Shown here piece after piece: positions 2,055 to 45,365 of a stretch of DNA of 64,000 nt. Made by a program: the position numbers and the translations under genes. Positions within the stretch are counted from its first letter, which is position 1, and each line of letters starts with the position of its first letter. The notes under the pieces were generated by a model, which had not been told where the DNA came from, did no database searches, and worked only from the letters and a program-made list of their open reading frames with translations. Source of the stretch: Paludisphaera borealis (GTDB taxonomy: Bacteria > Planctomycetota > Planctomycetia > Isosphaerales > Isosphaeraceae); NCBI RefSeq assembly GCF_001956985.1, contig NZ_CP019082.1, forward strand, positions 5,580,001-5,644,000. Reading direction: 5' to 3'.

Positions 2055-3110
2055 ATGTCACGAAATCGACGCGGTTTTACGTTGATCGAATTGCTCGTGG
2101 TCATCGCCATCATCGCGGTCCTCATCGCGCTGTTGCTCCCCGCTGTTCAGGCGGCTCGCGAGGCGGCCCGACACGCACAGTGCGTCAACAACCTGAAACA
2201 GCTCGGGCTCGCCCTGCACAACTACCACCAGGCCGTCGGCGCCTTCCCCATGATGAACAGCGCCGCTTACTCGAACGTACCGCCGAACAACGACAATTTC
2301 ACGACCTGGGGCGTGTTCGGCGCGCACGCGTTTCTGCTGCCCTACCTGGAGCAGTCTCCCGTCTACAACGCCTGCAACTTCGACTTCGGCTCCTATCCTC
2401 GGGGATCGGTGAATTCCGACATGACCTGGACCAACATCACGGTTTGGAACACCAAGGTCTCCTCTTTCATCTGCCCTTCGGACGGCCTCGCCGGCCAGGA
2501 CAACATCTGTAGCTACCAGGGCAATTGCGGCACCGGAACCGACGCCTGGGTATCCCAGAATTCCAACGGGATCTTCTGCCAGAATAAGACCTATGGCCTC
2601 GCCAGCGTGAGCGACGGCACCTCCAACACGATTGCCGCAACCGAGGCGTTGGTCGGCGCCGAAGGGACGCAAAAATACCGCTGGTACAAAGCCGGCTTCA
2701 ATTCCAGCCTGACCGGCGACCCGACCATGATGGTCAGAGACGCCCGCCAGAATCTGGCCGGAATCATGGCGATCGCCGCCCAATGCCAGGCGACGATCAA
2801 GACCCCGAGCCTCTTCTCCAACAAAGGGTATCGCTGGCAGGTCGGAGCCCCCGGCTTCACCATGACCAACATCATCATCACTCCCAACTCGTCGCAGTTC
2901 ACGTTTTCGACTTGCCGCTGGGATTGCAACGAGAACTGCGGCGTTGATTTCGGCCAGCTCCAGACGCCTTCGAGCAACCACGCAGGAGGGGTGAACGTCG
3001 CGTTCGCCGACGGTTCGGTCCGGTTCGTGAAAGACAGCATCAGCCAATCGACCTGGATGTCCCTCGGCAGCCGCGACGGCGGGGAGATCGTCTCTGCGGA
3101 CAGCTACTGA
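2055..3110 (+). CDS. DUF1559 domain protein with type IV pilin-like N-terminus
   Basis: The protein is 351 residues. It begins with a prepilin-type cleavage/methylation motif (RRGFTLIELLVVIAIIAVL) that continues into a hydrophobic helix. The DUF1559 body follows, with the family hallmark ARHAQCVNNLKQLGLALHNYH and a C-terminal H-x9-DG-type motif (HAGGVNVAFADGSVRF). The ATG at 2055 is chosen because the pilin motif starts there and a GGAGAG site lies six bases upstream; the 47 residues upstream in frame do not look coding. The family is greatly expanded in planctomycetes. Members are thought to be exported and assembled like pseudopilins, but the role of individual paralogues is not known. Confidence 0.93.
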   Translation: MSRNRRGFTLIELLVVIAIIAVLIALLLPAVQAAREAARHAQCVNNLKQLGLALHNYHQAVGAFPMMNSAAYSNVPPNNDNFTTWGVFGAHAFLLPYLEQSPVYNACNFDFGSYPRGSVNSDMTWTNITVWNTKVSSFICPSDGLAGQDNICSYQGNCGTGTDAWVSQNSNGIFCQNKTYGLASVSDGTSNTIAATEALVGAEGTQKYRWYKAGFNSSLTGDPTMMVRDARQNLAGIMAIAAQCQATIKTPSLFSNKGYRWQVGAPGFTMTNIIITPNSSQFTFSTCRWDCNENCGVDFGQLQTPSSNHAGGVNVAFADGSVRFVKDSISQSTWMSLGSRDGGEIVSADSY

Positions 3111-3127
3111 GCCTCTCGAATCGGACG

Positions 3128-3146
3128 GCACCCGCCGAACGGGTGC
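3128..3146 (+). terminator. Short hairpin after DUF1559 gene
   Basis: A perfect 7-bp stem (GCACCCG/CGGGTGC) with a 5-base loop lies 18 bases after the DUF1559 stop. There is no T tract, so it is only a weak terminator candidate. Confidence 0.35.
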
Positions 3147-3331
3147 GGAACGGGGACCGGCCGACGCCCGATCCTGGATTCTCGATGGTCTCCGGGTAGT
3201 CGGTTGCGAATAGGGGCCGGCCGCCGCACAATGAGGGCGTCCTGCCTCTTGGTCTTGGCCGAGGGGCGTCGCGGACCGCCGGCCCGGGCGCAACGGTCCG
3301 GTTTCTCCGTCGCTTTCGGAGGGTTGATCTG

Positions 3332-4669
3332 ATGGGTTCCGACGCGAAGACGCCTCGTCGCGAGTTTCTCCGAAGGACCGGCGCGGCGGCGGCGGCCGGG
3401 ATGGCCTTTCCGACGATCGTGACCGGCCGGGCGCTCGGCGGGACCGGTACGGCGGCGGCGAGCGAGCGGATTCGGCTCGGGTTCATCGGCGTCGGCAACC
3501 AGGGGACGAACAACCTCAAGGACTTCCTGAAGCTTAAGGACGCCGAGGTCGTCGCGGTCTGCGACGTCGACAAGGACCGCCTGGCCAAGGCGGCGAAGCT
3601 CGCGGAGCAGGGGGGGCGGAAGGTCGCGGCCCTCGGCGATTACCGCCGGCTGCTCGACGACAAGACGATCGACGCCGTGGTCGTCACCACGCCCGACCAC
3701 TGGCACGCCCTGGCCACCACCGACGCCTGCGTCGCTGGCAAGGACGTCTATTGCGAGAAGCCGCTGAGCCTGACCGTGTCCGAGGGGAGGACGATGGTCG
3801 ACGTCGCCCGCGACGCCAAACGGATCGTTCAGACCGGCAGTCAGCAGCGCTCCGACGACAAGTTCCGGCTCGCCTGCGAGTTGGTTCGCTCGGGCCGGCT
3901 CGGCAAGATCAAGCAGGTCAAGATCCACCTGCCCAAGGTCAACTTCGACGGTCCGGCCATGCCCGACGGCTCGCCGCCGCCCGAGCTCGACTACAACACC
4001 TGGCTCGGCCCCGCGCCCGATCGGCCGTACAACGCCAAGCACGTCCACTACCTGTTCCGGTTCTTCTGGGACTATTCCGGCGGCCAGATGACGAACTTCG
4101 GCGCTCACCACCTCGACATCGCCCAGTGGGGACTGGGACGCGACGACAGCGGGCCGGTCGCGATCGAGGCGAGGGCGACGTTCAACAAGGACGGCTGGTT
4201 CGAGGTCTCCGAGACTAGCCACATCGTTTACACCTACGACGACGGGATCAAGATCCTCTGCTCGCAGGGGACTGACGGCGGCCCTAACGTCCTGTTCGAG
4301 GGCGAGAAGGGCTCGATCGCCGTGTCGCGCGGCAAGATCAGCTCGACGCCCGACGAGATCCTCAAGGAGCCGCTCGCCAAGGGGGACGTCCACCTCTACG
4401 TGAGCAAAGACCACCACCAGAACTGGCTCGACTGTATCAAGTCGCGCGAGCTGCCGATCTGCGACGTCGCCATCGGCCACCGCTCGGCGACGGTCTGCCA
4501 CCTCGGCAACATTGCGATCCGGACCGGCCGGAAGCTCGTCTGGGACCCCGCCGCCGAGACGATCGTCGGCGACCCCGAGGCCGCCAAGATGCTCTCCCGC
4601 CCCTACCGCGCCCCCTGGCGCTTGCCCGAGTCGCCCTCCGCCAAGGCGGGCGCCCCGGCCCGCGCGTGA
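3332..4669 (+). CDS. Gfo/Idh/MocA-family oxidoreductase with Tat signal
   Basis: The protein is 445 residues. The N-terminus RREFLRRTGAAAAAGMAFPTIV is a twin-arginine export signal, so the folded, probably NAD(P)-loaded enzyme should act in the periplasm. A Rossmann fold follows (GFIGVGNQGTNNL), with the family motif CEKPLS at about residue 150 and DHWHALAT before it. The C-terminal half is the alpha/beta substrate domain (GGQMTNFGAHHLDIAQWGLG). GGAGGG (3318-3323) precedes the ATG by eight bases. Tat-exported members are abundant in planctomycetes and act on sugars or sugar derivatives; the substrate cannot be read from sequence. The next gene is a secreted quinoprotein dehydrogenase, which fits a periplasmic sugar-oxidation role. 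Confidence 0.92.
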   Translation: MGSDAKTPRREFLRRTGAAAAAGMAFPTIVTGRALGGTGTAAASERIRLGFIGVGNQGTNNLKDFLKLKDAEVVAVCDVDKDRLAKAAKLAEQGGRKVAALGDYRRLLDDKTIDAVVVTTPDHWHALATTDACVAGKDVYCEKPLSLTVSEGRTMVDVARDAKRIVQTGSQQRSDDKFRLACELVRSGRLGKIKQVKIHLPKVNFDGPAMPDGSPPPELDYNTWLGPAPDRPYNAKHVHYLFRFFWDYSGGQMTNFGAHHLDIAQWGLGRDDSGPVAIEARATFNKDGWFEVSETSHIVYTYDDGIKILCSQGTDGGPNVLFEGEKGSIAVSRGKISSTPDEILKEPLAKGDVHLYVSKDHHQNWLDCIKSRELPICDVAIGHRSATVCHLGNIAIRTGRKLVWDPAAETIVGDPEAAKMLSRPYRAPWRLPESPSAKAGAPARA

Positions 4670-6724: not shown

Positions 6725-6952
6725 GACCGACCACGGAGGACAGGAGGGACACGGAGGGGGGGCAGGTCAAAACCTTACTGAAATCCCTCTCCCGTCCGCT
6801 CCGTATTCTCCGTGGTGGATTGTGTTGGAATTTGACGGGACCGACCACGGAGGACAGGAGGGACACGGAGGCGGGGCAGGTCGAACCTTGCTGAATTCCC
6901 CCTCCCGTCCGCTCCGTATTCTCCGTGGTGGATTGTGTTGGACGTTTGACGG
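6725..6952. repeat. Two tandem 114-bp units with internal inverted repeats
   Basis: Unit 1 (6725-6838) and unit 2 (6839-6952) are nearly identical. Each begins with GACCGACCACGGAGGACAGG and contains the opposed segment CTCCGTATTCTCCGTGGTGG, so each can fold on itself through CCACGGAG/CTCCGTGG. The array fills most of the gene-free stretch 6651-6955 and ends directly against the stop of the GxxExxY gene. The CCACGGAGGAC motif recurs at 43941 in another intergenic element. I see no open frame of interest in it. Confidence 0.85.
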
Positions 6953-6955
6953 GAC

Positions 6956-7327
6956 TCAGACGACCAGGCGAGAGATGCCGTCTCGCAGATGGACGACGTT
7001 GAAGTTGAGCAGCAAGCCGACTCGAACGCCGCTCAATTTCAAGTAGGAAATCAGTTGGGCCTTATGGATCGGCGCAATCTCGTTCACCGCCTTGACTTCG
7101 ACGATGATGACACCGGCGACCATCATGTCGATTCGATACCCGGCGTCGATTCGGACAAGTTCGTAGACCACCGGCAGCGGAACTTGCGTCTCGACGTTCA
7201 GGCCTCTGCTCCGCAACTCGTGAGCGAGGCATGCTTCATAAGCACTCTCCATCAAGCCGGGTCCCAAAATGGAGTGGACCTTCATCGCCGCATCGATAAC
7301 GGCTCCGCTGGTCTCTTCATGAAGCAT
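6956..7327 (-). CDS. GxxExxY protein (PD-(D/E)XK nuclease-like)
   Basis: The protein is 123 residues from the ATG at 7327. GGAGGAG lies just upstream (on the minus strand), and upstream in-frame sequence belongs to a repeat. The family signature is visible as GLMESAYEACLAHEL. The middle has D-x(n)-E-x-K spacing (GYRIDMMVAG followed by VIIVEVKAV), which fits a small PD-(D/E)XK nuclease fold. The function of this family is not established. The gene is flanked by tandem repeats on its 3' side and by a repeat end (7365-7405) on its 5' side that is shared with a gene-less element at 43901-44090. This suggests it travels with, or acts on, that repeat family. Confidence 0.88.
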   Translation of the reverse strand: MLHEETSGAVIDAAMKVHSILGPGLMESAYEACLAHELRSRGLNVETQVPLPVVYELVRIDAGYRIDMMVAGVIIVEVKAVNEIAPIHKAQLISYLKLSGVRVGLLLNFNVVHLRDGISRLVV

Positions 7328-7364
7328 GTTCTCCTCCACGCAACGTCCCCTCCGCGTGAGTCGC

Positions 7365-7405
7365 GGTGAATTCCCTTGAATCCACAATAGGACGTTGTTC
7401 GTGGA
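7365..7405 (-). repeat. Repeat end shared with the 43.9-kb element
   Basis: Read on the minus strand, these 41 bases match 43902-43942 on the plus strand at 33 of 41 positions without gaps. The match starts at TCCACGAACA and ends at TTCAAGG-AATTCACC. In the second copy the same terminus forms a terminal inverted repeat. Confidence 0.75.
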
Positions 7406-7413
7406 GGGGCGTC

Positions 7414-9435
7414 TCACTTGCTGAACCAGTAGATTCCCTGGCCATTGATGGTGGTGGTCAGGAAGTAGACCTCGCCTTTTTCGTCCTCGCTGAACGACAT
7501 CACGTTCAGGCCGCGCGACGGGATCGGGCGGTTCTCGACGACGCGGCCTTTCGCTTCGTCGTAGCGCAAGGCCCAGAGGCGGCCGCTGACGTAGTCGGCG
7601 TAGAGGTACGCGCCGTCCAGCTCGGGCAGACGAGGGCCGCGATAGACGGTGCCGCCGGTGATCGACTTGCCCGTGTCGTGGTGGTAGTACTCCCAGATCG
7701 GTTCGATCAGGTCGGGCTGGGGCCCGACGCCCTTCCTTCCGAACGGGTGGAAGCCCTCGCGGCGGTTCCAGCCGTAGTTGCCCCCCTTGGTGATGATGTC
7801 GATCTCTTCCCAGAGGTTCTGGCCGACTTCACCCGCCCAGAGCCAGCCGGTCTTGCGGTCGAAGGCCATCCGCCAGATGTTGCGGATGCCGTAAGCCCAG
7901 ATCTCGGGCCGGGCGTCGCTCTGGTCGACGAAGGGATTGTCCTTGGGGATCGCGTAGTTCTTGCCCCCCTCGCTGTGGTCGACGTCGATGCGGAGGACCT
8001 TGCCGAGCAGGGTGTTGAGATTCTGGCCGTTCTCGTGGGGGTCGTTGCCCGCGCCGCCGTCGCCGTGCGTGACGTAGAGGTAGCCGTCCGGCCCGAAGAC
8101 GACCGTGCCGCCGTCGTGATTCCAGTACGGCTTTTCGTAGCGGAGGATCTCAACCTCGGAGTTCGGGTCGGCCTGATTGGGGTCGTCCTTGCGGACCTGG
8201 AACCGCGTGACGACGTTCGTCAGCTTGGCTTTCCGGGTCGTGTAGAAGACGTAAAAGTAGCCGTTCTCCTTGAATCGAGGGTGGAACGTGAGGCCCAGGA
8301 AGCCTTCCTCGTTGGTGTTGTCGTTGTAGGAGACGCGGTCCTGGATGTCGAGGAAGATGGTGGTCTGGGTCGCCTTCTGGTCATTGGGGAAGGTGTGGAT
8401 CACGCCGTGCTGCGTGGCGACGAAGAGGCGGTTCGAGCCGTCGTTGGCATGTGTCAGCACGATCGGCCGCAGGGTGTTGACCCGGCCGTCCTCGGTCTCG
8501 CCCTTCCAGCCGGCCCATTGCAAGTTCGGGAATGCGACCTCGGTCTTCAACGCGAGCGGTTCCTCGTTGACCTCGGCGCCGGGGACGGAGATCGCCACCG
8601 AGACGACCGAGCCGCCCCCCATGTCGGGGATCAGGAGCCGCTTGGCGGTGGGATCGACCGTGAGGTCAGCCGCGCTCTTCAGGCCTTCGACCAGAAGCAC
8701 GGGCTTGGTTCCGGGACGCGCGATCGCGAACACGCGTCCGCCCTTGTAGTCGCTGATGAACAGCCGGCCGAACTGGTCCCATGCGAGACCGTCGACTGTT
8801 CCGAGGTCGTCGGCGACCTTCTCGACCGAGCTGTTGGCCAGCTTGATGCGGTAAAGCGCCCCCGTGCCGAAATCGCCCAGCAGCAGATGCGACGCTCCAT
8901 CGAGGAGCAGGCCGTTCGGCGTGTGCAGTGCGGGGAGCCCCTTCTTGTCCAGGACCAGGCTCACGCCCCCCTTCGGCGAGATCTGGAAGACCGCGCCTTC
9001 GCCCCCCTTGAGGTCGCCCGAGTCGCTGACGAAGAGCGTGCCGCTCTCGACGTCGACGGCCAGGTCGTTGAGGAATTTCGGCGGCGTGGGGAACGCCGAG
9101 GCAGGCGCGAAGACTTCCGACTTGCCCTGGCCGTCGATTCTCAAGACGCGGGTCTTGTCGGCTACGAACAGCCATTGCTGATGAGCGACAAGCCCCTTCG
9201 GGTCGTCGAGACCCGAGACGAACGGCACGGCCTTGCCTTGGTCGATCTTCAGCACGGCGCCGTCGCCGTCGCGGCCGAATTCGCCGACGACCGAGACGAA
9301 GACCTGCCCCTGACCGTTCACGACCACCGATTCGGGGTTGGTCAGGCCCGTGACCACGGCCTTCGGCTGCGTCTGAGCCCCGGCCTGAGAGACCGCGCCG
9401 CATACCGCCAAAGCCAGAACAATCGATCGCCTCAT
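7414..9435 (-). CDS. Secreted two-propeller protein: SMP-30-like plus PQQ sugar dehydrogenase (GSDH) domain
   Basis: The protein is 673 residues. A signal peptide (MRRSIVLALAVCGAVSQAGAQ) is followed by an NHL/SMP-30-like six-bladed propeller (about 25-285; LTNPESVVVNGQGQVFVS, NGLLLDG, DGLAWDQFGRLFISD). A glucose/sorbosone dehydrogenase domain follows (about 300-670), with GFLGLTFHPRF, YVTHGDGGAGNDPH, EIWAYGIRNIWRMAFD, WAGEVGQNLWEEI and GGTVYRGP. The latter family uses PQQ for soluble aldose oxidation. The fusion suggests one domain oxidises the sugar and the other handles the lactone or binds the substrate, but this is inference. GGAGT lies upstream of the ATG. It lies head-to-tail after the GxxExxY gene region and may be monocistronic. 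Confidence 0.88.
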   Translation of the reverse strand: MRRSIVLALAVCGAVSQAGAQTQPKAVVTGLTNPESVVVNGQGQVFVSVVGEFGRDGDGAVLKIDQGKAVPFVSGLDDPKGLVAHQQWLFVADKTRVLRIDGQGKSEVFAPASAFPTPPKFLNDLAVDVESGTLFVSDSGDLKGGEGAVFQISPKGGVSLVLDKKGLPALHTPNGLLLDGASHLLLGDFGTGALYRIKLANSSVEKVADDLGTVDGLAWDQFGRLFISDYKGGRVFAIARPGTKPVLLVEGLKSAADLTVDPTAKRLLIPDMGGGSVVSVAISVPGAEVNEEPLALKTEVAFPNLQWAGWKGETEDGRVNTLRPIVLTHANDGSNRLFVATQHGVIHTFPNDQKATQTTIFLDIQDRVSYNDNTNEEGFLGLTFHPRFKENGYFYVFYTTRKAKLTNVVTRFQVRKDDPNQADPNSEVEILRYEKPYWNHDGGTVVFGPDGYLYVTHGDGGAGNDPHENGQNLNTLLGKVLRIDVDHSEGGKNYAIPKDNPFVDQSDARPEIWAYGIRNIWRMAFDRKTGWLWAGEVGQNLWEEIDIITKGGNYGWNRREGFHPFGRKGVGPQPDLIEPIWEYYHHDTGKSITGGTVYRGPRLPELDGAYLYADYVSGRLWALRYDEAKGRVVENRPIPSRGLNVMSFSEDEKGEVYFLTTTINGQGIYWFSK

Positions 9436-41981: not shown

Positions 41982-43847
41982 TCAATGATTCGAGAGCTCT
42001 TTGTCGGTCGTGCGGTCGGTGTGCCCAACGGGGGAGAGCAGCGCCTTCCAGTCGATCTGGATTTCAATGTCCTGACCCACGGCCGGAGGTGTGAACGGTT
42101 CGAAGCCGTCACCTTGGAAGCAGAGCCAGAGTAGTGACGGCGATTCGAGCGGGACGTCGAACCGGAACGTCGCCTCGGCCGGGCGGCCGTCGGCGGTCAG
42201 GTCGGTGATCGTGACGATCATGCCCGTCAGCCTTACCTGATCCCCGAGTGCGAACGGGCGGCGCTCGCTCCGGAAAACCTGATCGAGCGGCCATCGGAGA
42301 TACCCCTTTTGGGGCCTGATCGCGAGCGTCCGCTCGTCGAGGCGATGGATGGTTACGGAAGGCATCGCCGGCGCGAGGACCCACGTGTGTCGGGGCACGG
42401 AGAGCCCACTCTGCTCGCGTCGAAGGATCAGGTAGGTGGCGTTCACGGCGCTCGGGGCGTTCACGATGACGACGGTTCGATCCTCCAACGACGGCCCCAG
42501 CGGCATTTGGACGTAGAAACGCGCCTCGACCCACCTGGGGCCCACCGGGTTCGCGGCCCGGAACGGAAGTGAGATCGGGGCGAAGATCGCATGGACCACC
42601 ACGAGGAACCACGCCAGCGCCCTCGCCGTGACCCGCCACGATGCGCTGGAAGGCCCGCCGACGGCGCCGCCGAACACGAACGCCAGGTATTGGGCCAAAA
42701 GGCCCGATGCGCCGATGCCGACGAACGTGAGCAACCGGTCCATCGGGGCCGTGGCGCAGACCGGGATCGAGGCGAAGAGCATGCCGGCGGCCCAGTAGCA
42801 GGCGACCCGATCGCGGCGGAGCAGCGGAGCCTCCGCAAAGGCGAGCAGGGCGAGGAAGGCCGACGCGAGCCACCACAAGCCCGCGAACATCGACGGCCGC
42901 AGCACGGTGGCGAGGTCAGCCTGGATCGGACTCCACTGGCCGAGCAACAGGATCGGCAGGCGGGTCGAGACCGCCGTCGCGAATCGCCCGGCGTCGGTCA
43001 GCGGGTCGATGTAGAGGCCCATATCGTGGACGCCGTAACCCCACGACGCCCGGAGAACCGCCCACGCGATGACCGCCACGACATACGGCCACAAGGCCAG
43101 ACCACCTCGCCACCGCCCCCGAGGATCGACGAACAGCGCGTAGGAAGCCAGGTAGGCGCACGTCCCGATCCCTTCCTCCTTCGAGAACAGGGCGGCCAGG
43201 AGCAACATGGGGGCCAGAAGCGCCGCCGGGCGCGAGCCGTCGCGCCTCCAGCGGTCGTGGGCGATCAAGGCCGAGACACCGAACGTCGCCGCGACGAGCA
43301 CGTTGCGGTTAGCCAGCCATCCCACGGTCGTGCCGCGCGTGTCGTCGAGTGCGAACAGCAACGCCGCGACCCCCGCGACCCAGGCCGGACCGAGCATCCG
43401 CCGGTAGAAGGCCGCCGCGACCGTCACGGCGGCACCGAGCCAGAGCAGGCTGTGAGCGTGCATGAGCGCCGCGGAGTTTGGCCAGAGTGCGTAATCAAGC
43501 CGATGCGTCAGGACGGTCAGCGCTTGCAGAAACTCGCCCTTGATGCTTGGGTCGGTCCACCACGGAAAGAGCCCGACGTCCATGACGCGGCCGGTCCGAA
43601 CCGGGTCGCCCCGGAAAAATCGGAACATCTCCGAAGGAGGGCCGAGAAGGTCCCGCAACTGCGAGTTCCCGAGCAGAACCGTCCGATGATAGTAGTCGTC
43701 GAGCATCCAGCCGACGCCAAGCGCAGGCAGCGAGAGGAAGACGGCCAGCACGGCCGCGATGATCGGCAGGCGACGATTCTCAAGCAACCTTCCGGTCGAC
43801 GTCGCCAGCCTTGGAATCATCCTGCGCGACGGTTCTCCGCTCGACAT
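41982..43847 (-). CDS. Polytopic membrane protein, GT-C glycosyltransferase-like
   Basis: The protein is 621 residues with about 10-11 membrane segments, from LPIIAAVLAVFLSLPALGVGWML onward. Directly after the first helix comes DDYYHRTVL, an acidic Asp-Asp/Glu-type loop in the position of the catalytic first periplasmic loop of GT-C transferases. The last about 190 residues are a soluble beta-rich domain (VIVNAPSAVNATYL, RLTGMIVTITDLTADGRPAEATFRFDVPL). It may use polyprenyl-phosphate sugars at the membrane, but no family name is secure. It is preceded upstream by the 190-bp inverted-repeat element. Confidence 0.7.
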   Translation of the reverse strand: MSSGEPSRRMIPRLATSTGRLLENRRLPIIAAVLAVFLSLPALGVGWMLDDYYHRTVLLGNSQLRDLLGPPSEMFRFFRGDPVRTGRVMDVGLFPWWTDPSIKGEFLQALTVLTHRLDYALWPNSAALMHAHSLLWLGAAVTVAAAFYRRMLGPAWVAGVAALLFALDDTRGTTVGWLANRNVLVAATFGVSALIAHDRWRRDGSRPAALLAPMLLLAALFSKEEGIGTCAYLASYALFVDPRGRWRGGLALWPYVVAVIAWAVLRASWGYGVHDMGLYIDPLTDAGRFATAVSTRLPILLLGQWSPIQADLATVLRPSMFAGLWWLASAFLALLAFAEAPLLRRDRVACYWAAGMLFASIPVCATAPMDRLLTFVGIGASGLLAQYLAFVFGGAVGGPSSASWRVTARALAWFLVVVHAIFAPISLPFRAANPVGPRWVEARFYVQMPLGPSLEDRTVVIVNAPSAVNATYLILRREQSGLSVPRHTWVLAPAMPSVTIHRLDERTLAIRPQKGYLRWPLDQVFRSERRPFALGDQVRLTGMIVTITDLTADGRPAEATFRFDVPLESPSLLWLCFQGDGFEPFTPPAVGQDIEIQIDWKALLSPVGHTDRTTDKELSNH

Positions 43848-44153
43848 CGCACGGACTCCGCCGGTTGGTGGTACGTCAGCTTGTTACGATACATGGGGTC
43901 GTCCACGAACAGCGGCCAACTGCTGGTTCAAGGAAATTCACCACGGAGGACGCGGAGAATAATACGGAGGGGGACGCGACCTGGTTGATCGTTTCCCAGA
44001 TCCTCCCCGTTCCCCTCCAAGTCCTCCGTGGCAGATGTCTTCGGTCTCACGTTTCGACTCAACTCTTCGAGTTGGACGTTGTTCGTGGACAGTCCCAGAT
44101 GTCATGGCGGCGTCCCAATTATGCCAGGTATGTCGGATCGAGGCGGGATTTCG
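43848..44153. other. Divergent spacer holding the 190-bp element
   Basis: Lies between the leftward membrane protein gene and the rightward MnmE-like gene. Most of it (43901-44090) is the repeat element listed separately. The start of the MnmE-like gene is therefore separated from older upstream DNA by this element. No clear promoter is seen. Confidence 0.6.
43901..44090. mobile_element. 190-bp gene-less element with terminal inverted repeats
   Basis: The ends 43901-43921 and 44070-44090 are inverted copies of each other at 19 of 21 positions, starting GTCCACGAACA. Just inside are a second opposed pair, CCACGGAGGACGCGGAG (43941 onward) and CTCCAAGTCCTCCGTGG (about 44016-44032). A small perfect hairpin CAACTC/GAGTTG lies near the right end. 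The left 41 bases match the end of the GxxExxY locus (7365-7405) at 33 of 41. It contains no transposase. It looks like a non-autonomous repeat related to that locus. Confidence 0.7.
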
Positions 44154-45365
44154 ATGAGCGAAGCGGCGGCGAGTCGGCCATCCGTCTGCGTCCTCACACC
44201 GCGTGGGCGGGGGGCGATCGGGGTGGTGCGGGTCTGGGGAGAGGGGGCGTTGGCGGCTGCGAGCGCGGTGTTCCGGCCGGCGCGGGGGGAGGGGCTCGGA
44301 ACCACTCCGCGGCGGCGGCCGAGGTTGGGGAGGATCGGCTCGGGGCTCGGTGACGAGGTCGTGGCGGTGGTCCTCGACGGTGAGCCGCCGGAGGTGGAGA
44401 TCCAGTGCCACGGCGGACCGGCGGCGGTCGACCTGGTGGTCGAGACGCTCACGAACGCCGGGGGGCGGCTGGTCGAACCAGGGGCGTTCGCCGAGCACGC
44501 GGCGGGGAGCCCGATCCGGGCGGCGGCCCTGGAGGATCTGGCGAGGGCCTCGACCTTGCGCACGGCCGAAATCCTGCTCGAACAGGCGCAGGGGGCGCTC
44601 GACGCGGAACTCGACCGGTTGATCGCGGTAATCGAAGCGGATCGCGGCCGGGGGCTGGCCGAGCTGGATCGGCTGATCGAGCGCGGGCGCGTCGGAGTTC
44701 GGCTCATCGCGGGTTGGCGAGTCGTGATCGCGGGTCGGCCCAACGTCGGCAAGAGCCGGCTTCTGAACGCACTCGCGGGCTATCAGCGGGCGATCGTGGA
44801 CGCCACGCCTGGGACGACCCGCGACGTCGTGACCGTGTCGGCGGCCTTCGACGGCTGGCCGGTCGAGCTGGTCGACACGGCCGGGGTGCGGGGGACCGAC
44901 GACCTGATCGAGCAATCGGGGATCGAACGGGCGCTTCGAGAGCATCGGCGGGCCGACCTGCTCCTCAAGGTGTTCGACCGGTCGCAGCCGCTCGAAGTGG
45001 AGGACCGACGGCTTTTGGCCGCCGACGGCGACGCGCTGGTGATCGTCAACAAGGCCGACCTGCCGGCTGCGTGGACGCCCGAAACCGCGTGGATGGATGC
45101 GTTTGCGGTCGTGGCCGTATCCGCCGAGCGCGGCGACGGCCTGGACGAACTGGGACGAGAGATCGCCCGGCGACTGGTTCCGAATCCGCCCGAGCCGGGC
45201 GCGGGCTTGCCGTTTCGGACCGAGCAAGTGGAGGCGCTGCGCGCCGCCCGCGCGTCGTTCGCCGTCGGGAACGAACGCGCGGCGTTGCAAACATTGCGAT
45301 CGTTGGCTCAGGTCTCGACGTCGGGGGCTTCGGGGATGCGCTGGAGGTCGGACCCCTTGCGGTAG
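44154..45365 (+). CDS. mnmE: MnmE/TrmE-like tRNA modification GTPase lacking the usual C-terminus
   Basis: The protein is 403 residues against about 450 for the family. The N-terminal tetrahydrofolate-binding domain (LTPRGRGAIGVVRVWG, EIQCHGGPAAVDLVVE, PGAFAEHA) and helical domain precede a G domain with G1 GRPNVGKSR, G2 TPGTTRD, G3 DTAG and G4 NKAD. It ends in GNERAALQTLRSLAQVSTSG and lacks the terminal segment with the conserved CIGK-type motif, whose Cys is essential for cmnm5U formation in characterised enzymes. The final 58 bases overlap a convergent kinase gene. ATG 44154 is chosen; 44121 and 44130 are alternatives. It may be a degraded or repurposed paralogue. Confidence 0.8.
   Translation: MSEAAASRPSVCVLTPRGRGAIGVVRVWGEGALAAASAVFRPARGEGLGTTPRRRPRLGRIGSGLGDEVVAVVLDGEPPEVEIQCHGGPAAVDLVVETLTNAGGRLVEPGAFAEHAAGSPIRAAALEDLARASTLRTAEILLEQAQGALDAELDRLIAVIEADRGRGLAELDRLIERGRVGVRLIAGWRVVIAGRPNVGKSRLLNALAGYQRAIVDATPGTTRDVVTVSAAFDGWPVELVDTAGVRGTDDLIEQSGIERALREHRRADLLLKVFDRSQPLEVEDRRLLAADGDALVIVNKADLPAAWTPETAWMDAFAVVAVSAERGDGLDELGREIARRLVPNPPEPGAGLPFRTEQVEALRAARASFAVGNERAALQTLRSLAQVSTSGASGMRWRSDPLR

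Follow-up and report, generated by a model that had tools for sequence, protein, structure and literature searches.

The palindromic feature near 43.9 kb of the window, by which we mean the whole 64,000-nucleotide stretch of Paludisphaera borealis DNA analysed here, is probably a non-autonomous derivative, shortened by internal deletion, of a small mobile element that in its complete state contains a GxxExxY gene. GxxExxY proteins make up a widespread nuclease family for which, to our knowledge, no function has been established. The best reading of the evidence is an autonomous/non-autonomous pair of the REPIN-RAYT kind, run by an unrelated nuclease of the PD-(D/E)XK type. The full element would consist of outer inverted ends that differ from lineage to lineage, an inner pair of inverted arms, each with about three iterons of 7-9 nt, and one GxxExxY gene inside.

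An earlier note had described a 190-bp element with inverted ends at 43901-44090. This description holds, as the 21-bp ends pair at 19 of 21 positions as inverted copies, with the limits better set at 43894-44097 (Table 1). The terminal inverted repeat is 28 bp long with 82% identity, and the inner inverted pair has 73% identity. The end repeat scores 18.0, compared with 14.0 for the best of 2000 shuffles, and single-strand folding gives z values of -5.1 and -5.9 for the plus and minus strands, respectively; Rfam returned no matches up to E 1 for positions 43501-44500 of the window. The left 41 bases had been said to match the end of the GxxExxY locus at 33/41, and the match itself stands, on the minus strand at 7366-7406, with the ungapped identity corrected to 32/41. 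This is the top non-self match of those bases across the 64 kb, the runner-up reaching 25/41. The CCACGGAGGA blocks reported as common to both loci are likewise present, at 43941, 6731 and 6845. With its many copies in the genome (below) and its strong folding, the 43.9-kb element is far above chance.

Table 1. Positions of the palindromic element and of the GxxExxY gene locus within the window.
Feature	Position	Strand	Basis
Downstream hairpin 2 (hairpin 1 duplicated in tandem)	6731..6815	none	inverted repeat
Downstream hairpin 1 (CCACGGAGGACAGGAGGGACACGGAGG ... CTCCGTATTCTCCGTGG)	6845..6928	none	inverted repeat
GxxExxY (TIGR04256 / PF13366) PD-(D/E)XK nuclease gene	6956..7327	-	profile match, model
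Degenerate upstream inner arm (TTCACCGCGACTCACGCGGAGG)	7349..7373	-	sequence comparison
Outer end of the gene-bearing copy	7366..7406	-	32/41 to left end of 43.9-kb element
Palindromic element without gene, member of a dispersed family	43894..44097	none	repeats, genome matches, folding
Left terminal inverted repeat	43894..43921	+	family consensus GGGGCCGTCCACGAACAACGTCCAACT
Left inner iteron arm (CCACGGAGGACGCGGAG...)	43941..43970	+	inner inverted pair
Right inner iteron arm (...TCCTCCGTGG)	44002..44031	-	inner inverted pair
Right terminal inverted repeat	44070..44097	-	pairs with left repeat

The GxxExxY gene of the window has its likely start at ATG 7327, which by eye follows GGAGGAG, within a longest ORF running from GTG 7417, and the outer end of this copy lies 7 bp past the end of the adjoining ORF 7414-9435. 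Three GxxExxY loci occur in the genome: the intact copy of the window, one interrupted and one frameshifted. The second copy (L120) is split, at about 2510-4300 of its own locus, by an insertion of ~1.8 kb that resembles a transposon, with inverted GGACAAAA...TTTTGTCC ends. Whole hairpins are duplicated in tandem in more than one place: next to the window gene (6731-6928) there are two units at a distance of 114 bp, and at G000:C1:3888197-3888704 (L010, L016, L022 and L029) there are four of ~116 bp.

Gene-less relatives of the 43.9-kb element are numerous in the same genome. A BLAST search with a 231-bp element query, scoring 40 of the 61 first-look candidates, gave at least 41 matches in at least 29 places, the window copy included, and 14 aligned full-length copies share the consensus GGGGCCGTCCACGAACAACGTCCAACT ... 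TTCACCACGGAGGACGCGGAG ... CTCCGCGTCCTCCGTGGTGAA ... AGTTGGAnGTTGTTCGTGGACGGCCCC. When 40 genomes were searched with at most 20 candidates scored in each, the P. borealis genome again gave at least 30 matches at that setting, and the only match elsewhere was a marginal one of 27 bp in G004. The family is thus dispersed and lineage-restricted. No GxxExxY gene was found in five genus mates; the neighbours of both window loci are kept only singly in G001-G005, and gene order differs in the genus mates. Four of 26 gene-less copies (L005, L017, L025 and L030) hold 63-72 nt of the 3' part of the GxxExxY gene, each of these matches beating all 100 shuffles (26 of 30 loci were used, leaving out three further members of a tandem array and one locus at a place already represented). 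Thus, at least some gene-less copies derive from gene-bearing ones by internal deletion. A further candidate remnant, in L001, is marginal (21.5 against a shuffle maximum of 20.0) and lies outside the element, and we do not place it with the four. The target duplications that the earlier note had suggested looking for did not appear in 16 full-length copies of this genome, where the mean match across the edges is 3.0, compared with 2.6 for swapped edges, and only 1/16 reaches 5 bp or more. Two copies in another genome, G014, seem by eye to be flanked by a duplication of ~8 bp and others there do not; these are left uncounted.

Across phyla, GxxExxY genes are mostly flanked by inverted arms. 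We aligned the 300 bp upstream of each gene to the reverse complement of the 300 bp downstream, and scored a pass where the alignment exceeded the maximum of 100 shuffles. The test was passed by 56/67 planctomycete loci (72 less five duplicates) and by 61/78 loci of a multi-phylum set made up of the best 80 of at least 570 confirmed, two of the 80 having been dropped for short flanks; 11/67 and 17/78 failed. Distant flanks of the same two sets passed in 1/58 and 1/64 cases, and ribosomal protein L21 genes in 2/27 (30 of 58 matches taken, three of the 30 lost for incomplete flanks). The gene locus of the window (L031) does not pass, with an arm score of 11.0 below its threshold of 19.5, and neither does L120; the arms of both are degraded, in L031 the upstream one.

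The arms are short tandem iterons, most commonly ACC-ACRGAG-n-CACRGAG-n-CACRGAG, with variants such as CGCAGAG, CACGAAG, CGCCAAG, CACGGAT and CACGAAA. Three sense iterons matching the pattern used for the count stand upstream in 30/67 planctomycete and 50/78 multi-phylum loci, three inverted ones downstream in 24/67 and 48/78, and three on both sides in 21/67 and 38/78, against 0/27 of the L21 loci. Swapping upstream and downstream partners between loci still gives passes in 20/100 planctomycete and 34/100 multi-phylum pairings, because the loci share a consensus, and this is a reason for caution. Arm similarity between loci tracks protein identity (Mantel r 0.283, 0/2000 permutations, 110 loci, with kinship ignored). 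We do not count the similarity of arms within a locus (0.604 versus 0.102), which arises partly by construction, the alignment itself having cut out the arms. Arm type is not set by the genome, since G028 encodes four different GxxExxY proteins with three arm types, CACGGAA, CACAGAG and, twice, CACGGAT. The earlier note would have taken flanks of other GxxExxY genes without the CCACGGAG and CCACGAACA motifs as a refutation; read literally, many flanks are indeed without these exact motifs, and it is the inverted-arm architecture that carries over. CCACGGAG, one form among several of a variable iteron, was found in 5/29 planctomycete GxxExxY loci and rejected as a common motif, and the CCACGAACA end is specific to the lineage of the window. 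What GxxExxY loci have in common, the architecture and not the exact letters, came to light only when upstream flanks were compared with inverted downstream ones.

It could still be that the palindromes are MITEs moved by another transposase, with GxxExxY merely captured between repeats as a passenger. The family in P. borealis does have MITE-like terminal inverted repeats, and the link between nuclease and movement rests on association. Against this, the arm-GxxExxY-arm arrangement recurs across phyla, with arms that vary along with the protein, and target duplication was undetected in the P. borealis family. Moreover, both arms of many multi-phylum loci fall inside the roughly 100 bp next to the gene, which leaves no space for another gene. 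We therefore regard the passenger model as unlikely.

Copies tend toward positions close behind stop codons. Genes were called by a simple script rather than taken from annotation, and the orientation counts cover the units for which both neighbours were called: 41/80 multi-phylum units, 42/67 planctomycete units and 21/27 groups of gene-less palindromes from Thioalkalivibrio (27 groups from 25 fetched regions, one region being without a group). Among the gene-bearing multi-phylum units, 32/41 lie in the order stop, unit, start, co-oriented with both neighbours, and 4/41 in the reverse order; the planctomycete counts are 23/42 and 5, with 11 between convergent genes. The gene-less Thioalkalivibrio palindromes have convergent neighbours in 13/21 cases, and a stop codon lies within 40 bp of the edge in 15/27 compared with a start codon in 2/27. 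In P. borealis, the distance from an edge to a stop codon is 0-7 bp for 5/16 full-length copies, and by eye all three gene-bearing loci begin directly after a stop triplet. A homing endonuclease within an intron or intein was considered and set aside, as the examined units sit between genes and not inside one.

Empty orthologous sites, which the earlier note had proposed as a check, do exist. One Thioalkalivibrio site carries the unit in seven genomes and is without it in eight, the interval between two conserved genes being 406-761 bp in the carriers and 13-94 bp in the others. The empty site of G073 reads TGA-TACAGGCCCTTCA-ATG, whereas Thioalkalivibrio sp. ALJ16 (G059, locus L137) has an extra 545 bp right after the TGA, followed by the same 13 bp with one change. 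By eye, the arm types at this site (L328-L334) differ among species, with CACAGAG in G059 and G070, CACGAAG in G066, G068 and G088, and AGGAAG-like iterons in G065 and G074. At a second site ~10 kb away, arm clusters are present in G065, G068 and G070, and the interval is about 43-55 bp in five genomes lacking GxxExxY; G074 and G088 carry other inserts there and were left uncounted. Gain and precise loss would both fit these patterns. GxxExxY occurs in 9/30 Thioalkalivibrio genomes, with one match each. Dispersed gene-less arms of the L137 type, with 10 candidates scored per genome, were found in 7/7 carriers of the gene at this site and in 0/23 other genomes (Fisher 4.9e-7), the genomes being related and not 30 independent trials; two of the 23 arm-negative genomes carry a different GxxExxY. 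Copies of the gene can also be closely similar in unrelated surroundings: G014 has several that are 85-95% alike, with sharp ends (GGCTCCTC...GAAGAGCC, by eye) and unrelated flanks. Separately, GxxExxY loci match across 3-4 kb between species of one genus (L117/L118 and L079/L116, in G013 and G030), which indicates that some copies are inherited in place; one of these pairs has broken or partial genes.

These observations bear on a regulatory or structural explanation, in which GxxExxY binds the arms, or the arms act as hairpin terminators selected by the host at gene ends, and the copies form a regulon or a set of bidirectional terminators that are now immobile. Such a role would suit the strong folding of the palindromes, their position at gene ends, often between convergent genes, and the closeness of the arms to the gene. 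Against it stand orthologous sites with and without the unit, gene remnants within gene-less copies, closely similar gene copies in unrelated flanks (G014), and a family restricted to one lineage, all of which point to mobility. We find this explanation somewhat harder to sustain than the passenger model and hold it to be improbable, while secondary use of the copies as terminators is compatible with the REPIN-RAYT-like reading too.

The window protein scores 142.1 bits against TIGR04256 (cut-off 35) and 141.6 bits against PF13366 (cut-off 22), and PDDEXK_3 and GxxExxY are its sole Pfam and NCBIfam matches, which rules against its being a RAYT, that is, an HUH tyrosine transposase. In an alignment of 77 sequences, from which four loci with stops were omitted, D70 and K82 never vary, and E80, Q94 and Y98 are each conserved in at least 90%, which is the pattern of RecB/Cas4-type PD-(D/E)XK nucleases. 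A structure model of the protein (pLDDT 96.1) has as its top structural match SSO0001, a Cas4 (4ic1; Z 9.9, rmsd 3.3, 98 residues; matches with Z under 8 were disregarded). As modelled, the protein has the PD-(D/E)XK fold together with the D...ExK motif. No solved relative was found by sequence at E <= 1, and a Foldseek search of the PDB gave no matches at E <= 0.001. The protein matched 0 of 50,697 phage records and 8/72,556 plasmid records, and we accordingly discard spread via phages or plasmids. A defence library gave weak matches only (Cas4, E 0.003). A GxxExxY protein is also listed for the algal virus genome CpV-BQ1 in the part of PMC12085832 available to us, and PF13366 is mentioned in excerpts of PMC9756366. 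In the open-access literature, including the available text of PMC4853749, PMC3733652, PMC4679880 and PMC3116915, we found no link between GxxExxY and repeats, and four arm strings that we searched for were absent from the open-access literature.

A toxin-antitoxin or defence role, in which repeat RNA restrains the nuclease as in type III systems and copies spread by addiction selection, draws on the small nuclease gene adjoining short tandem repeats, and is very improbable in view of the weak defence-library matches, the inverted arms on both sides, the numerous gene-less copies and the near absence of the protein from phage and plasmid records.

All three of these models are less likely than the autonomous/non-autonomous pair that the earlier note had suggested, which is supported by the number of gene-less copies, the remnants in 4/26 of them, the arms that flank the gene and the Thioalkalivibrio site occupied in seven genomes and empty in eight. 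From the association between gene and arms we infer that the nuclease drives the movement. It would bind the iterons of its own element, probably when these form a hairpin by extrusion or in single-stranded DNA, and cut at the foot of the palindrome; host replication or repair would then insert a copy just after some other gene ends, where harm is least. Gene-bearing copies would be expressed by read-through from the upstream gene, and gene-less copies would depend on the nuclease acting in trans, the relation proposed for REPINs and RAYTs.

There thus seems to be a link between the GxxExxY family and a type of repeat that is widespread in bacteria. Repeats of the CACAGAG/CACGGAG type recur in unrelated bacterial genomes, and tying them to GxxExxY would supply a role. 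If the reading is true, genome parasitism of the REPIN kind arose more than once, here with an enzyme unrelated to HUH transposases. The suggested target rule is a position close behind stop codons, for which Thioalkalivibrio offers sites with and without the unit.

Genes of a second family show a comparable layout. TIGR02436 loci (four-helix-bundle, 23S-IVP-like; L201-L230) have inverted iteron arms, with 19/24 passing the arm test (30 of 44 matches taken, six of the 30 lost for incomplete flanks), and their heptamers include AGTTTTC, GTAGGCA, AGCGGTC and GGGTAGC. Most of these arms directly adjoin the stop codon upstream, and the order stop, unit, start holds in 15/17. At about 5520-6030 of L354 (G070), a palindrome without gene includes a long stretch of (ACCCGCT)n, the iteron type that also surrounds the TIGR02436 gene L203; elements of the GxxExxY and TIGR02436 types may insert into one another. 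The arrays of the heptamer TAACTGA in Beggiatoaceae, as presented in excerpts of PMC4679880, also resemble TIGR02436 iterons. We give an even chance to the broader proposal of a wide class of mobile elements in bacteria, each with one small gene between inverted arms of tandem 7-9-nt iterons, placed close behind stops and leaving many gene-less palindromic offspring. Such a class would be headed by at least two unrelated proteins, GxxExxY (CACRGAG-type iterons) and TIGR02436 (AGTTTTC, GTAGGCA, AGCGGGT), each recognising an iteron of its own, and a large share of the short repeats still unexplained in bacterial genomes would descend from this class.

Several known systems resemble the GxxExxY elements in part. 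The Beggiatoaceae repeats are likewise 7-nt tandem iterons, intergenic and tolerated at gene ends, but the heptamer is another one, and the available text of PMC4679880 does not name a repeat-binding protein. In type III toxin-antitoxin systems the repeats are arranged differently, GxxExxY arms standing on both sides of the gene. The intervening sequences of 23S rRNA genes with an S23/four-helix-bundle protein, as outlined in excerpts of PMC4990558, are also small selfish units with an ORF, and dispersed TIGR02436 genes share the arm-gene-arm layout and abut stops too; however, the protein family and the iterons are others, and GxxExxY units lie between protein genes. MITEs of insertion sequences are similarly short, with terminal inverted repeats, and are internal-deletion derivatives of a gene-bearing copy. 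They differ in that no transposase is known here, the related gene-bearing copies carrying GxxExxY, and in that a fixed-length target-site duplication was undetected in the P. borealis family. TIRYTs and TIRtrons, in the part of PMC3733652 at hand, also have a gene flanked by inverted repeats able to form a repeat family, with tyrosine transposases in place of a PD-(D/E)XK nuclease.

The closest likeness is to REPIN-RAYT systems (REPtrons), such as that of Pseudomonas fluorescens SBW25 as described in excerpts of PMC3116915: a single gene for an enzyme is flanked by inverted palindromic repeats, palindromes without the gene are numerous in the genome, and the gene is single-copy, as it is in the seven Thioalkalivibrio carriers. 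Two features of a REPtron, inverted repeats around an enzyme gene and gene-less copies elsewhere in the genome, were both found here. However, the enzyme is a PD-(D/E)XK nuclease rather than an HUH tyrosine transposase, tandem iterons take the place of GTAG-tagged REPs in the arms, the copies lie close behind stop codons, and gene-bearing copies can be multicopy, as in G014. Because the logic is that of REPINs and RAYTs, as far as the available portions of PMC3116915 and PMC3733652 set it out, and the enzyme is unrelated, the GxxExxY element would work like a REPtron without being a member of that group.
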